Positions 7,314 to 17,389 of a stretch of DNA of 22,081 nt are shown here, piece after piece. Numbering within the stretch: position 1 is the first letter of the stretch; each line of letters opens with the position of its first letter. The notes under the pieces are model-generated. The model ran no database searches, had not been told where the DNA came from, and saw nothing but the letters and a program-made list of their open reading frames with translations. Source of the DNA: a virus; the IMG/VR virus record IMGVR_UViG_3300044952_001036, positions 1-22,081 of that record. One strand, written 5' to 3'. The position numbers and the translations under genes were made by a program.

Positions 7314-8123
7314 TTATGCGTAGTTGCTGATTCTATAATTGCCTGGACTACGTGCTGTGCTGTCTAGGTATTTCAAAAGATAATTGTTTTTTGTATTTTT
7401 GAAGTCAATTACCCAAGGTGTGTTGTATTCACAGAATCTACCACTCTCTTGCTTGACTATTGCTGTTGTCCATCGATTGTATTCGTTAAGGTTAAAATGC
7501 GGAATAATAATGGGTTTTGTAGTTAACGGAGTCCAAATTTCTGTATGTTGTTCAGTGTTGTTGTATTTGTATTTGATTTCATTACGAGGGATCTGTGCAT
7601 GACGTTTGTTGCTGATTTCCAGCTCACTCAAGCTGCTGGGTGGTGTCTTGTAAGCCACCTCAATTATATCGCTTGATTGGGGATGAGCCAAAATGTCTGC
7701 TTGCTCTTTGTAAAAATCAATAACTGCTCTAGCCATCTGTTTTTTGGCTTCTGGAATCATAATCCAGCGATTGGCTCCTGCAGATTCAAACATCATAATT
7801 TGCGCTTCGGTCAAAATTGTTTTTTGTGTGAGTCTGTCAAAAGCAACTGGAAAATAACTTTTCAGTTGTTCAGGCCATTCTTGAGGCTTTTTCACCAATT
7901 CGCGAATGTTGAGATTGTATTTGGCTAGATCACAAAAGAGTGATGCTTGATCGTGTGTGATGTTGAGAATAGTTTGTGGAAATGCTCTTACACGACTGCT
8001 AAAGGTTCCTACAAGAGTATTGTAAAATCCCAACTCTTGCCGGAAAAAACTATTGAGCCGATTTTGATCTACTGGATCAACTACAATAAAAATGCTGCGG
8101 TGTTGTGGCTTGTTGTGCTTCAT
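7314..8123 (-). CDS. Unrecognised phage protein
   Basis: The 269-residue product is counted from ATG 8123, which has a weak AGAG about 10 bases upstream. I do not recognise the family. The sequence is soluble, with a beta strand/Asp pattern near the start (SIFIVVDPVDQNRL), helices in the middle, and several Trp/Tyr residues in the last third; no membrane segment, cysteine cluster or nuclease motif is seen. The same frame is open further upstream to a TTG at 8240 and reads plausibly as protein (for example 'FIVLDGYNQ'). That start would overlap the divergent nuclease gene by 25 bases and has no ribosome-binding site. The shorter start leaves a 92-base gap between the two genes that could hold divergent promoters (TATAAT-like on minus, TATAAAAT on plus). 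The gene faces the candidate RNA block on its downstream side. Confidence 0.65.
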   Translation of the reverse strand: MKHNKPQHRSIFIVVDPVDQNRLNSFFRQELGFYNTLVGTFSSRVRAFPQTILNITHDQASLFCDLAKYNLNIRELVKKPQEWPEQLKSYFPVAFDRLTQKTILTEAQIMMFESAGANRWIMIPEAKKQMARAVIDFYKEQADILAHPQSSDIIEVAYKTPPSSLSELEISNKRHAQIPRNEIKYKYNNTEQHTEIWTPLTTKPIIIPHFNLNEYNRWTTAIVKQESGRFCEYNTPWVIDFKNTKNNYLLKYLDSTARSPGNYRISNYA

Positions 8124-8215
8124 TTGAAATGCTCTTTTGTTATTTTGATTATAGCCATCTAAAACTATAAAATCAAAGACTTCCAGAGCTTTTTCTGGAT
8201 TACAGGAAAAAACAT

Positions 8216-8731
8216 ATGGCAGGGTCCAAAGGCAAGGCAAAAGGAAATGCAGGCGAATTACGGATAGCCAAGTTTCTCACAACGTTATATGAAGCCAAAT
8301 TTATTAGGGTGCCTAATTCTGGTGCCTTCATTGGAGGAGCAAACACCAAGAGAAAAGACACTATGGATGCTACGCAAATCAGCTACTTCAAAAGTGATCT
8401 CATTCCACCTTCCCATATGAAAAAGCTGGTGATTGAAAGTAAGTTTTATCAAGACTTTCCGTGGCATCGACTCATGTGCAATGGAGATATCAAACAACTG
8501 GATGCTTGGATAGAACAGACATTGGATGTCTGTGACCCAGAAGACCTCTGGTTCGTGGTCATACGCATCAATCGCAAAGGAAGTTATGCTTGTTTTGATC
8601 AAAAACATTTGGACAGCTTCACTGTAGAGAACCATGCTCGTTACAAAACCTTTGTAATAACAGAGTTTGAGCCATTTTTTGAACAAAACAAGCTTAAGAT
8701 TGCAGAATTGGCCTACACTGCTGGTGTATAA
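8216..8731 (+). CDS. PD-(D/E)XK nuclease, Holliday-junction-resolvase-like
   Basis: The 171-residue protein opens with a basic Gly/Lys-rich segment (KGKAKGNAGE). It carries the spaced acidic residues of the PD-(D/E)XK nuclease fold: E14 in the first helix, D61 in 'SDLI', and E74-x-K76 in 'VIESKFYQDF'. The 'GNAGE..IAKFL' opening and the E-x-K strand are typical of small phage resolvases and RecU/Hjc-like enzymes, which cut branched DNA during recombination and before packaging. ATG 8216 has AGGA about 8 bases upstream. The gene converges on gp46 and overlaps its 3' end by 19 bases. Its place beside gp46/gp47 fits recombination and DNA debranching. A general endonuclease of the same fold cannot be excluded. 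Confidence 0.7.
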   Translation: MAGSKGKAKGNAGELRIAKFLTTLYEAKFIRVPNSGAFIGGANTKRKDTMDATQISYFKSDLIPPSHMKKLVIESKFYQDFPWHRLMCNGDIKQLDAWIEQTLDVCDPEDLWFVVIRINRKGSYACFDQKHLDSFTVENHARYKTFVITEFEPFFEQNKLKIAELAYTAGV

Positions 8732-14339: not shown

Positions 14340-16559
14340 ATGAAGCTGTTTGACTTATTACCAGAAGTAAATCTCTCTTTGACTGAGGCCAAAGCCCGTA
14401 TCGAGCATCCAGAAGACATGATCTTCGATGAGGGGTTAGATGGTGCCAAAAGAGCTTTTCATATACTGAGCACAACTGCTCATGAACCCGAGTATGTTAG
14501 TATCAAGTTTGATGGTTCTCCGGCCTTGATTTCTGGATGGAAAGACTATAAATTTGTGTTAACAGACAAAGCTGGATTCAGCAGTAAAAAATACAATGGT
14601 TTAACCACAAGCCCTGAGGATATTGTCAATATGCTCATGAGCAGGAAAATGAAAGACACCAGCCCCAGTGCAAAGAGTGCTCGACTGGCATATGCCAACA
14701 AAATAGCCAGTCTCTACCCATTGTTGAAAAAAGTTACCCCAAAAGGATTTATCGGTTACGTTCAAGCGGATTTGTTGTGGACTGGTGTACCTCCCATTGT
14801 AGATGGGGCATATGAATTTACACCCAACAAAATAACTTATCGTGTGCCTGTCAACAGTCAATATGGTGAAATGATTGCCAACAGCAGTGCTGGCGTGGTC
14901 ATGCACAGTGTTTATCAAAGCCCTGAAGATCAGGAACCAGAAGCCTTGCGAAACATCAGTCAATATGGCTTTCGCACTGATCAAGGACTGGCTATCCTAC
15001 CTCATGAAGCCACCATGCTCAAAAGTTTGAACCTGGATAAAAACTTAGTTGACAAATTATCCCACTTGTTTAGAGTGCATGCTGTAAGTGTGAAATCATT
15101 TTTGGACAGAGGACAACTAGCCAGTCATGAAATCTTGAGCCTTCCTGGCTTGATGAAAAGCTTTTTGGCCAAAAAGGCAGAACGTGGTAGTTCCACATTT
15201 AGCCATGTGAGTAGAGAGTTTTTGGAGTGGCTTACAGGGCTCAACAGTACTGCTAGCCCTGCAATGCAGGCCAAGTGTTTGAAATGGATTCAAAGCCACA
15301 TCCATGGTTACAATAGCGTGTGGCGGATAGTAAGTTTGTTGACAAGTTTGAAGCTGGATCTCAAGAAACAAATGGACCGTCAAACAGATGGGACAGTTGG
15401 TGCTAGTTTGGGTGGAGATCCAGGACATGAAGGATTTGTGGCTGTAACTCCCACTGGAATAGTGAAGTTTGTAAATCGTGCCCAATTTATGAGAAAAGGC
15501 GAGCCTGATTCATTGATGGAACAAGAACACAAACGGGTAGTTTGGACCTTTGGCAGGATGAATCCTCCCACTCGTGGTCATCAGCACTTGGTTAACACAA
15601 TGGCCAAACACGCTGGCAAGGGTGACTATTGGATCTTTTTGAGTCACAGTCAAGACGGTAAAAAGAATCCATTGCCTTGGGCGGAAAAGCTGGAGTTTTT
15701 CCAAGAGATTATGCCTCAACACCAAGATCATGTGGTGCAGGATGAGAGCATCAAAACTCCGCTGCAAGCCGCAGAATGGCTCTACAACAAAGGCTATAGA
15801 CATTTTGTATTTGTTGCCGGAGAAGATCGTGTGCAGGGCATGACAGACCTTTTTGACTCTTGGAACAGTCCAGAAATACGTGAAAAACATCAACGTCAAC
15901 CAGTGACGATTGAAATTGTATCAGCTGGAGAACGGCATCCAGATGGCATTGGCGTTAGTGGAATAAGCGGCACCAAGGCACGTGCGGCTGTTTTGAACAA
16001 AGACAAAAAGGCTTTCCACCAAGCTGTGGGTTTGGATGATGAACTTTCCAATAGGCTGTTCCAATCAGTTCGACGCTATCTCAAGCACCCTAGGAACACA
16101 GTAATGGAAGCTCATGAGCACGCTGCTGGCACCATAGTTGTTTTGAGCATGAGTCCCAAAAATGCTCTAGAGCTCAAAGAATGGTGTGAAAGTCAAGGTG
16201 TTCCCTGTATGAATACTGATGATCTTCACATGACTGTTTTGTATAGCCAAAAACCAGTGCCTCACCTCATGAGCATGCATGGTAACACTGTGGTTGTGCC
16301 AGCACAAATAAAAGGTTGGACCAAAATGGGCGACAAAGCCCTGTGCCTAGACCTAGATTGTGACCTGGCACACAAATTTCATCATCATTTGAAGAGCAAG
16401 GGAGGAACTCACGATTTCCCCAACTTCATTCCACACAGCAGCGTAAATTACAATTGGTTGGAGAGAACAGACCTACCAAAAGTTTTGCCCAACTTTCCTC
16501 TGCTGTTTGATCAGATTCATGTCAAGCCAATTGATCCCCGATACGGAAACAAAAGCTAG
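14340..16559 (+). CDS. Three-domain enzyme: ligase-type nucleotidyltransferase + NMNAT-type adenylyltransferase + 2H phosphoesterase
   Basis: The protein has 739 residues and three enzyme-like parts. Residues 1-385 carry ligase-superfamily motifs: K56-x-D58-G59 (motif I, candidate AMP-lysine), 'QADLLW' at 142-147, E364-G-F-V (motif IV) and K376 (motif V). Residues about 398-585 form a cytidylyltransferase-like nucleotide-binding domain: 'GRMNPPTRGH' with T411-x-G-H414 in place of HxGH, and 'ISGTKAR' at 542-548 matching the ISSTxxR motif of NMN adenylyltransferases. Residues about 593-739 form a 2H phosphoesterase with H630-M-T632 and H699-S-S701. Ligase and 2H parts are typical of RNA repair; NMNAT parts make NAD; 2H enzymes also cut cyclic signal nucleotides. 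The actual substrate is not known. The gene converges on the polymerase-beta-type nucleotidyltransferase and shares a CTAG with its stop. Confidence 0.75.
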   Translation: MKLFDLLPEVNLSLTEAKARIEHPEDMIFDEGLDGAKRAFHILSTTAHEPEYVSIKFDGSPALISGWKDYKFVLTDKAGFSSKKYNGLTTSPEDIVNMLMSRKMKDTSPSAKSARLAYANKIASLYPLLKKVTPKGFIGYVQADLLWTGVPPIVDGAYEFTPNKITYRVPVNSQYGEMIANSSAGVVMHSVYQSPEDQEPEALRNISQYGFRTDQGLAILPHEATMLKSLNLDKNLVDKLSHLFRVHAVSVKSFLDRGQLASHEILSLPGLMKSFLAKKAERGSSTFSHVSREFLEWLTGLNSTASPAMQAKCLKWIQSHIHGYNSVWRIVSLLTSLKLDLKKQMDRQTDGTVGASLGGDPGHEGFVAVTPTGIVKFVNRAQFMRKGEPDSLMEQEHKRVVWTFGRMNPPTRGHQHLVNTMAKHAGKGDYWIFLSHSQDGKKNPLPWAEKLEFFQEIMPQHQDHVVQDESIKTPLQAAEWLYNKGYRHFVFVAGEDRVQGMTDLFDSWNSPEIREKHQRQPVTIEIVSAGERHPDGIGVSGISGTKARAAVLNKDKKAFHQAVGLDDELSNRLFQSVRRYLKHPRNTVMEAHEHAAGTIVVLSMSPKNALELKEWCESQGVPCMNTDDLHMTVLYSQKPVPHLMSMHGNTVVVPAQIKGWTKMGDKALCLDLDCDLAHKFHHHLKSKGGTHDFPNFIPHSSVNYNWLERTDLPKVLPNFPLLFDQIHVKPIDPRYGNKS

Positions 16560-17389
16560 ACAGCTACACCTGTCAACTGCTCAATCCTTGCAGCTTCTTC
16601 TTCTGATTTGCGTTGCTCACTGGGAGATTTCTGCTTAAACTTCCCAGTTTTCACATCCATTGTGGGTTTGCCAGTGGGCCCTAATTTATCCAAGCTCCTT
16701 AGAGTTTGAATCAACTCAGTCAACCCTTGATGAATAGCCCTATTGCCTTTGATGGCTCGTTGAATAGTTTCAACACTTTGGAAGCTGTCGTGAGTGAATC
16801 TGGGTCCCAACAGCTTTTGTGCAATCACATCAGGATCAGTGGAGATAACAGATTCATCTTCCCGATTCAACAGTCCACGTTGCCAACTGTATTTCATTCC
16901 CAACGCTTTGGCAATACTGCTCATGAGTTGATTTCTTTCTGCACCAGTGTAGTTGCTGGCGTCTCCTGGACTCTGCATGCTGAATTTCATCCATTGAGGA
17001 TCATCATGGAAGAAAAAGTCAGTTTGCACGAAGCCATTCTTGGGATCACCTGCAATTGGTGTCAACAGATGAACTTCTCCAGCAGGCTTCACATACTCTT
17101 TGGGGTTCAAACCTTGGCTCAACACCCAGTTTTGGAGACTTTGGGCAAATTGGGCTTTTGACATTTTCTTGCTGTCGACTACGATGTCGATATCCCCACT
17201 GCTGGCTTTTTTGCCAACACTGCCCAAGGTCATGCCATGCATGGGCAGCCCTGTGATTTTTTCCAGCCAATCCAACGTGGGACTGATCAAAGCCAGTGGG
17301 ATACGAGTGGTGCGTGGATAGCCATCTGAGGTTTTGAATACGTTGCCGCCTTCAAAAACTAATTGTGGGGAGAGTTCAAACTGTTTCAT
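16556..17389 (-). CDS. Polymerase-beta-type nucleotidyltransferase
   Basis: The 277-residue protein has the minimal catalytic pattern of the Pol-beta superfamily. G56-S57 (LGSVGKKASS) leads into G65-D66-I-D68 (GDIDIVVD), and a third acidic residue D124 lies in 'VQTDFFF'. That makes the three metal ligands D66, D68 and D124. Residues 175-230 are helical and basic and may bind nucleic acid; the last 40 residues (PTGKPTMDVKTGKF onwards) look disordered. Family members add a nucleotide to tRNA, other RNA, protein or antibiotic targets; the substrate here is not evident. The start ATG 17389 has no strong ribosome-binding site. The gene converges on the three-domain enzyme, sharing the palindromic CTAG as stop, which suggests a long association of the two. 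Confidence 0.72.
   Translation of the reverse strand: MKQFELSPQLVFEGGNVFKTSDGYPRTTRIPLALISPTLDWLEKITGLPMHGMTLGSVGKKASSGDIDIVVDSKKMSKAQFAQSLQNWVLSQGLNPKEYVKPAGEVHLLTPIAGDPKNGFVQTDFFFHDDPQWMKFSMQSPGDASNYTGAERNQLMSSIAKALGMKYSWQRGLLNREDESVISTDPDVIAQKLLGPRFTHDSFQSVETIQRAIKGNRAIHQGLTELIQTLRSLDKLGPTGKPTMDVKTGKFKQKSPSEQRKSEEEAARIEQLTGVAV

Follow-up and report, generated by a model that had tools for sequence, protein, structure and literature searches.

A three-domain protein from a large T4-like phage: DUF6267, an NMNAT-type nucleotidyltransferase and an Acb1-type 2H phosphoesterase

The fungal tRNA ligase Trl1 is composed of a ligase, a kinase and a 2H phosphodiesterase. In other systems the work is divided between proteins, and RlaP, a Pol-beta protein, is described as acting in concert with an RNA ligase (PMC7824862). 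The 2H fold also occurs in Acb1 (T4 57B, FBB1), an anti-CBASS nuclease whose described ligand contacts include Y12, W74, F107, E141 and W147 (PMC9117128). A fusion of a phage 2H domain to a ligase-type domain matters because, in a survey of polyvalent phage proteins, phage-type 2H domains, a group that may differ from the one discussed here, were reportedly never found with RNA ligases (PMC5512222).

The window, which is the whole 22,081-nucleotide stretch of DNA that was analysed, encodes a 739-residue protein of a large T4-like phage, in which DUF6267, an NMNAT/PPAT-type HUP nucleotidyltransferase and an Acb1-type 2H phosphoesterase follow one another from the N to the C terminus (Table 1). 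The original prediction had placed three catalytic domains in this single frame, and the ORF coincides with it exactly; matches in Pfam, all above the curated cut-offs (DUF6267, E 2.2e-27; Acb1, E 3.8e-18; CTP_transf_like, E 1.4e-5), in PHROGs and in the PDB confirm the assignment. All the motifs that it quoted are present, and their residues are conserved throughout the three-domain family, for which residues were counted in 17 distinct proteins. The full-length model has a pLDDT of 88.9. A search for the architecture among phage proteins, which had been proposed as a check, recovered the same order in 34 distinct viral contigs, with identities down to 46%. The protein has no PADLOC match, and no kinase family for 5′-OH ends was matched in it by Pfam.

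Table 1. Features of the three-domain gene and its convergent neighbour (nucleotide positions in the window)
Feature	Positions	Strand	Basis or conservation
ORF of the three-domain protein, 739 aa, ATG start	14340..16559, stop included	+	ORF list; architecture common to 34 distinct viral contigs
Domain 1, residues 21–384, DUF6267 (PF19782)	14400..15491	+	ligase-fold nucleotidyltransferase suggested by motifs and structure
Motif I, K56-F-D-G59; K56 putative adenylylated lysine	14505..14516	+	K, D, G in 65/65 aligned sequences
D144, putative motif III acid	14769..14771	+	D in 65/65
Motif IV, E364-G-F-V367	15429..15440	+	E, G in 65/65; V in 64/65
Motif V lysine, K376	15465..15467	+	65/65
Domain 2, residues 397–588, HUP/NMNAT-type nucleotidyltransferase	15528..16103	+	Pfam, PHROGs, structure
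T411-R-G-H414 (TxGH)	15570..15581	+	T, G, H in 17/17 distinct three-domain proteins
ISGTKAR, residues 542–548 (ISxTxxR)	15963..15983	+	S543, R548 in 17/17; T545 in 15/17
Domain 3, residues 597–735, Acb1-type 2H phosphoesterase	16128..16544	+	Pfam, PDB phmmer, structure
First 2H motif, H630-M-T632	16227..16235	+	H, T in 17/17
Second 2H motif, H699-S-S701	16434..16442	+	H, S701 in 17/17
Convergent neighbour, 277 aa, Pol-beta-like nucleotidyltransferase by motif (GSxG..SGDxD..D, VQxD)	16556..17389	−	family fused to DUF6267 elsewhere

By way of a working analogy, the protein would resemble Trl1 in carrying a ligase-fold part at the N terminus and a 2H part at the C terminus of one chain. Unlike in Trl1, the centre is a HUP domain according to Pfam and structure, not a polynucleotide kinase, and the Pol-beta partner is a separate protein. 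The claim that no enzyme with this order of domains had been described agrees with a limited literature search, covering few subscription journals, which found no description of the three-domain architecture, no activity or role reported for DUF6267 and no role for its HUP partner. The first two domains by themselves are less singular, as they form a common pair in cyanophages. The pair of S-PM2, S-WAM1 and Melnitz (phrog_455) consists of the same two domains, either as a single protein (S-PM2, 591 aa) or as the products of neighbouring or nearby genes; unlike the protein of the window, it comes without a detected 2H domain, and the HUP partner often has other C-terminal extensions. In the loci searched, no HUP or DUF6267 protein other than those of the three-domain family was accompanied by a detected 2H domain.

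DUF6267 was previously a Pfam family of unknown function, and its reading as a ligase fold appears to be new here. In an alignment of 65 sequences, the window's own copy included, K56, D58, G59, D144, E364, G365, K376 and R380 are invariant. D144 stands where ligases have E in motif III, and E364 and K376 are 12 residues apart, a spacing that is presumably 14 in the Naegleria RNA ligase if E312 and K326, known as mutants from PDB titles, are its motifs IV and V. The domain was re-predicted alone because the alignment behind the full-length model had wrongly spread 18 Acb1 fragments over it; the separate model (pLDDT 92, pTM 0.88) contains a long helical insertion. Its listed VIA matches are RNA or DNA ligases in 50 of 50 cases, 43 of them by title, two titled Pmar-Lig and five, in NHEJ complexes, assigned to ligase IV by their chain length and range. 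The top Z scores, of 7.8 for the Naegleria RNA ligase, 6.8 for T4 Rnl1 and 6.7 for the ligase domain of Trl1 (8rbj), are moderate, and so is the support that they and the invariant motifs lend to the predicted ligase-type domain. Together with the gene context, they suggest that DUF6267 is a divergent, cryptic ligase-fold nucleotidyltransferase of the lysyl-AMP type.

Identification of a ligase by sequence profile was tried and failed, every comparison with a ligase profile being non-significant. Profile–profile alignment with hhalign gave E values of 0.03–0.04, and RNA_lig_T4_1 was reached by two of the 65 members (best E 0.027). Domain 1 of the window itself matches DUF6267 and, at E 0.12, DUF4880, with no ligase among the families, and none of the families searched labels residues 1–385 as a ligase. 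In Foldseek, the DUF6267 model had no match with E <0.01, the best being CorA (E 0.017), with T4 Rnl1 at E 0.14.

The other two domains are closer to characterized families. The middle domain matches two cytidyltransferase families of PHROGs (E 4.4e-45 and 9.8e-35) and shares with NadM/NMNAT and PPAT the HUP fold (VIA Z about 12–13.5 over 145–168 residues) as well as TxGH and ISGT..R, which upholds the proposed NMNAT-type fold; PPAT, NadD and NMNAT tie in Z as its structural matches. The C-terminal domain finds Acb1 both by PDB phmmer (7t26, E 1e-8) and by structure (7t27, Z 16.2, rmsd 2.1 over 133 residues), with HxT/HxS kept, as expected for the 2H fold that had been recognised in it. In PHROGs it matches phrog_755 (E 3.2e-21), a family named RNA ligase there; the same label is also attached to T4 57B/Acb1.

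The three-domain gene is accompanied by the convergent gene in 34 of 34 distinct contigs. The product of the latter is named Pol-beta-like from its motifs and context, because searches of the PDB and Pfam with the family profile gave nothing meaningful; the 277-residue neighbour in the window likewise has no significant match in Pfam, PHROGs or NCBIfam. It is similar to RlaP in being a nucleotidyltransferase of the Pol-beta type with a link to a ligase-type protein. Unlike RlaP, it does not match the PF10127 profile, and a true RlaP is encoded elsewhere in the phage, with a PF10127 match about 94 kb away in contig G001. A scan with DUF6267 gave, among the best matches listed, 79 loci, in which the domain is fused to the Pol-beta family in 41, lies beside it in 25, belongs to a three-domain protein in two and has neither in 11. 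In a corresponding HUP scan, again of 79 loci among the best matches listed, DUF6267 is fused or within 3 kb in 74 and absent in five.

Taken as a whole, the domain matches, the predicted structures, the residues invariant in all 65 sequences and the Pol-beta/HUP gene context lead us to favour, tentatively, a nucleic-acid end-healing and sealing module formed by DUF6267, HUP, 2H and the Pol-beta partner, most likely acting on RNA. The substrate would most likely be RNA cut by host defence nucleases, in which the 2H domain would open 2′,3′-cyclic phosphates, the Pol-beta partner would put back lost nucleotides and K56 of DUF6267 would take AMP for the sealing of the ends. The HUP domain might make some adenylylated or dinucleotide intermediate. 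Besides the three-domain protein, the same phage encodes two separate RNA ligases, RlaP and a kinase-phosphatase; the module could be a specialised supplement to this conventional set, and because the set is already there it may also do something else. Against repair, moreover, the five loci of the nearest stand-alone 2H relatives have no recognised repair gene adjoining. Two further ideas were set aside: a Tpt1/KptA partner (2′-phosphate removal with NAD+) had no match above the cut-off in three contigs, and for the repair of phage tRNAs no tRNA gene was seen in the window or in 17 tiles, joints uncovered, of the 328-kb contig G001.

A bolder version, which we consider doubtful, is that DUF6267 founds a new ligase-fold branch, common in marine T4-like phages and working with Pol-beta and HUP proteins, and that a jumbo-phage lineage captured an Acb1-type 2H domain. 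A single polypeptide would then open, refill and reseal defence-broken RNA, or would remove a defence signal and mend its damage, and its chemistry would be unlike that of known RNA repair. Reading DUF6267 as an enzyme of ligase fold whose partners are Pol-beta and HUP proteins provides a testable hypothesis for a gene pair that is common in marine phages.

Another nucleotide-transfer pathway is somewhat unlikely to be the answer. DUF6267, HUP and Pol-beta would then modify or cap a nucleic acid, a protein or a metabolite, for instance in DNA metabolism, and the 2H domain would trim the product, no repair being involved. In S-PM2, S-WAM1 and Melnitz, recA/uvsX and primase-helicase genes are found close to the genes of the pair, together with MazG in two of these phages, which fits such a pathway, as do the complete RNA-repair set elsewhere in the phage and the D in motif III and helical insertion of DUF6267. 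The exclusively polynucleotide-ligase character of the listed structural neighbours of DUF6267 argues against it, and so does the pairing of the Pol-beta partner with a weakly RNA-ligase-like gene, which overlaps the Pol-beta gene in Atu_ph07 (RNA_ligase, E 0.002) and Phosso (E 0.085); both matches are below the cut-off, and that of Phosso was absent in a second search. A HUP protein of S-WAM1 has a match to tRNA_lig_kinase that also stays below the cut-off (E 0.05).

A counter-defence chimera, in which the 2H domain, like Acb1, breaks down cyclic-nucleotide signals and the other domains restore NAD or mend the damage of the same defence, is unlikely. The Acb1 fold and HxT/HxS are kept, and so is part of the ligand site: in the 17 three-domain proteins the position of W74 is always W, that of F107 is F, Y or W, and that of W147 is Y or W. 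The full contact set is absent in the window, which keeps W74 and F107, has Y for W147 and replaces Y12 with I and E141 with K. Across the family all 17 proteins have I or V at the Y12 position, and the E141 position is K in nine (the window included), E in four, D in three and S in one. Because E141 is not lost in all 17, this explanation was slightly raised and the other-pathway one slightly lowered. Unlike Acb1, the 2H domain of the window is fused to two other enzyme domains; in a long-branched tree, such fused domains fall with four stand-alone rows into a clade of their own (100/95), separate from that of T4-like Acb1 (99/86). NAD restoration, moreover, is encoded elsewhere in the phage.

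The last point also bears on an NAD+ cycle, in which DUF6267 would be an NAD+-using ligase releasing NMN, and the fused NMNAT-type domain would remake NAD+ from NMN and ATP. The NMNAT-type fold with its ISGT..R motif and the frequent pairing of DUF6267 with HUP domains are in its favour, yet it is very improbable, as the structural neighbours of DUF6267 are ligases whose cofactor we take to be ATP and the phage has its own NadM and NadV. These are encoded on contig G002, which carries a copy 99% identical to the protein of the window, with NadV near its own NadM (NMNAT plus Nudix); no NadV was seen on contig G001. Because of this separate pair, the proposal that the middle domain supplies NAD is weakened, and NAD supply was set aside as its main role. 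The HUP domain is about 19% identical to the NadM of the same phage, in a rough alignment that misplaces the ISGT motif. The absence of NadV from S-PM2, S-WAM1 and Melnitz neither helps nor excludes the cycle. Finally, chance motifs or a misassembled fusion can be dismissed, given the significant Pfam matches and the identical architecture in 34 distinct contigs at 46–100% identity.

Beyond the three-domain family, DUF6267 was found in at least 483 viral-contig stretches, and tblastn with the window's copy alone gave 84 phage records, duplicates included. The HUP domain occurs in 514 phage records, and databases call its gene cytidyltransferase. Prokaryote genomes yielded no relative of the whole 739-residue protein. 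DUF6267 is present in 25 contigs of prokaryote databases (22 under MAG titles, two from bins and one from an isolate, Nonlabens xiamenensis), which are probably phage contigs; a HUP ORF lies in the stretch examined around DUF6267 in 14 of the 25. Pseudomonas phage Cassandra, a relative by its portal protein (50%), has a HUP gene followed by two downstream ORFs that appear repeat- or structural-like by eye.

The original prediction of one protein carrying ligase-type, NMN adenylyltransferase-type and 2H phosphoesterase signatures is borne out by the three-domain ORF, which contains all the motifs quoted and has Pfam matches to three domains; PHROGs agree with Pfam for domains 2 and 3, and phmmer matches the protein to the solved Acb1 structure 7t26 (E 1e-8). 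Tentatively, this protein and the convergent Pol-beta-like gene, which is named by its motif, are read as a system for healing and sealing nucleic-acid ends, most likely those of RNA, in which the 2H domain would open cyclic phosphates, the Pol-beta protein would refill, and the DUF6267 lysine would accept AMP and seal. The protein would belong among the multi-enzyme nucleic-acid repair or counter-defence proteins. Its folds are already known; neither a ligase reading of DUF6267 nor its fusion with an Acb1-type 2H domain was found in the literature searched.

Coordinates and domain matches of the features discussed (L-numbers, loci fetched for comparison; G001, a viral contig)
Feature	Location	Strand	Length	Matches
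Three-domain ORF	window 14340-16559	+	739 aa	
DUF6267	residues 21-384			Pfam, E 2.2e-27, over cut-off
CTP_transf_like (HUP domain)	residues 403-548			Pfam, E 1.4e-5, over cut-off
Acb1 (2H)	residues 597-733			Pfam, E 3.8e-18, over cut-off
Pol-beta-like gene	window 16556-17389	-	277 aa	none significant in Pfam, PHROG or NCBIfam
ORF	window 7314-8240	-	308 aa	none significant in Pfam, PHROGs, NCBIfam or PADLOC
ORF of G001	L350:1709-2632			start GIY-YIG-like by eye
Portal protein, Synechococcus phage Ssp-JY40	L117:1576-3435			Phage_portal_3 + C-terminal Acb1
Overlapping genes, Atu_ph07	L119:3034-5582			
Overlapping genes, Phosso	L118:2806-5501			

The three-domain order occurs in 34 distinct viral contigs (20 from the whole-protein scan, one at L109/L430, one at L202/L439 and 12 at L431-L438 and L440-L443), many of which are near-copies and some of which have ORFs clipped by the contig border. 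Beyond the ORF, on the opposite strand, a Pol-beta-like gene is present in 34/34, with 3 to 36 bases between the ORF ends. Seventeen distinct sequences were retained, including that of the window, to which they are 46-100% identical. The motif residues are conserved in 16/16 or 17/17 for the ligase motifs and in 17/17 for both the 2H motifs and TxGH plus R548 of the HUP domain; the exceptions are T545, which is S in two proteins, and H436, which is Q in one, while K441 differs in three, K442 in two and D496/R497 in two.

The AlphaFold2 model of the whole protein (pLDDT 88.9, pTM 0.55) is confident for the single predicted domains and not for their mutual arrangement. Two of the proposed folds are recovered when the model is compared with the PDB: residues 596-735 superpose on Acb1 7t27 (Z 16.2, 133 residues, rmsd 2.1), and residues 397-588 match PPAT, NadD and NMNAT (Z about 12-13.5). 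Domain 1, modelled separately from 65 sequences (pLDDT 92, pTM 0.88), gives nothing significant with Foldseek alone, the best matches being CorA (E 0.017) and T4 Rnl1 (E 0.14). When Foldseek candidates were re-aligned (VIA), every one of the 50 rows listed was a polynucleotide ligase: the title says so for 43, two bear the title Pmar-Lig, and five chains of NHEJ complexes are read as ligase IV by their length and range. The best-scoring are Naegleria RNA ligase (Z 7.8), T4 Rnl1 (6.8), fungal tRNA ligase (6.7), the trypanosome editing ligase (6.6) and T4 Rnl2 (6.3), followed by DNA ligases, and values below 8 are by themselves no proof of a ligase fold. Taken together, the unmixed listing and the residues of motifs I, IV and V, which are invariant in 65/65 sequences including the window's, make a ligase-type fold likely for the modelled DUF6267 domain. 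Sequence profiles do not see this kinship (hhalign against Rnl1 or Atu_ph07-type proteins, E 0.03-0.04), and there is no clear match between the Rnl1 set and Atu_ph07-type pair either (E 0.033).

The partners of DUF6267 were surveyed in scans of the best 80 matches, which include near-copies and are not unbiased samples. Among the best 79 loci of the DUF6267-based scan, 41 are fusions with Pol-beta, 25 have Pol-beta in the same orientation at most 3 kb away, two are three-domain and 11 are neither. The best 77 loci of the whole-protein scan comprise 53 Pol-beta fusions, 20 three-domain proteins, one locus without DUF6267 and three with none of these, two of them clipped by the contig end; L022 carries its own HUP match, below cut-off. 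The fusion with Pol-beta amounts to 83 full-length ORFs in the first 336 loci, near-copies included. The HUP domain's part is the weakest step of the proposed mechanism, and it is somewhat unlikely that the protein serves another nucleotide-transfer pathway. In the HUP-based scan, DUF6267 is fused or within 3 kb in 74/79 of the best loci and not in five. Isolated phages share the same logic: DUF6267 and HUP are a single fused gene in S-PM2 and adjacent genes in S-WAM1, and Melnitz has the order DUF6267, small gene, HUP+DUF5824. Agrobacterium phage Atu_ph07 and Sinorhizobium phage Phosso each have, upstream of Pol-beta and overlapping it, a gene with KLDG and EGVV, whose RNA_ligase matches are weak and below cut-off (E 0.002 and 0.085); in other loci this position belongs to DUF6267. 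In both, a third gene, alike by eye between the two phages, continues the overlapping row.

Less probably, the protein may be a counter-defence chimera whose 2H domain has anti-CBASS activity, as Acb1 does. Acb1 is described with catalytic residues H44, T46, H113 and T115 and contacts Y12, W74, F107, W147 and E141 (part of PMC9117128). Aligned with T4 57B, the window's domain has H, T, H, S at the catalytic positions and W, F, Y at W74, F107 and W147, but I at Y12 and K at E141; among the 17 proteins, Y12 is I in 15 and V in two, E141 is K in nine, E in four, D in three and S in one, and W147 is Y in nine and W in eight. According to the passage concerned of PMC5512222, the 2H domains that phages carry in polyvalent proteins, like the solo versions, were never observed together with RNA ligases. 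A tree was computed for 68 2H domains, with a warning from the program about long branches (two T4-like rows included). In it, 13 three-domain and four stand-alone rows form one clade (100/95), to which neither the T4-like rows (a clade of their own, 99/86) nor the portal-type or large proteins belong, and the three-domain rows alone form one weakly supported group (73/73). No repair genes were recognised adjoining the five stand-alone 2H loci of this clade (L281-L285), which lie in similar phage gene neighbourhoods, with neighbours that we take, by eye, to be S-adenosylmethionine decarboxylase-, glycerophosphodiester-phosphodiesterase- and HAD-like. In the same tree, thirty other proteins of at least 300 aa group near the Ssp-JY40 portal-Acb1 protein.

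The portal of the window has its nearest matches, of the 12 records listed, in PA5oct-like Pseudomonas phages and Atu_ph07 (48-50%). Copies of the protein with 99% identity to the window's occur on two contigs (328,603 and 309,756 bases), whose common genes are offset by about 72 kb between the two numberings, so the phage genome may reach 400 kb. Across both contigs are an Rnl1-type ligase, a second RNA_ligase protein, RlaP and an AAA_33+Metallophos protein, likely a kinase-phosphatase, as well as NadM (HUP+Nudix) and NadV. Separate genes thus provide for RNA repair as well as NAD salvage, the three-domain protein being something additional, and a role in an NAD+ cycle is very unlikely. In the parts of the sources concerned, several RNA ligases per phage are possible and probably not redundant, RlaP acts together with RNA ligases (PMC7824862), and all surveyed phages with NadM also have NadV (PMC9503650). 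No tRNA genes were found in the 328-kb jumbo-phage contig (L339-L355), read in tiles. In this contig (G001), the GIY-YIG-like ORF lies between SbcC-like and PDDEXK genes, a place where none is listed in the window; the near-identical phages may differ here by a mobile endonuclease.
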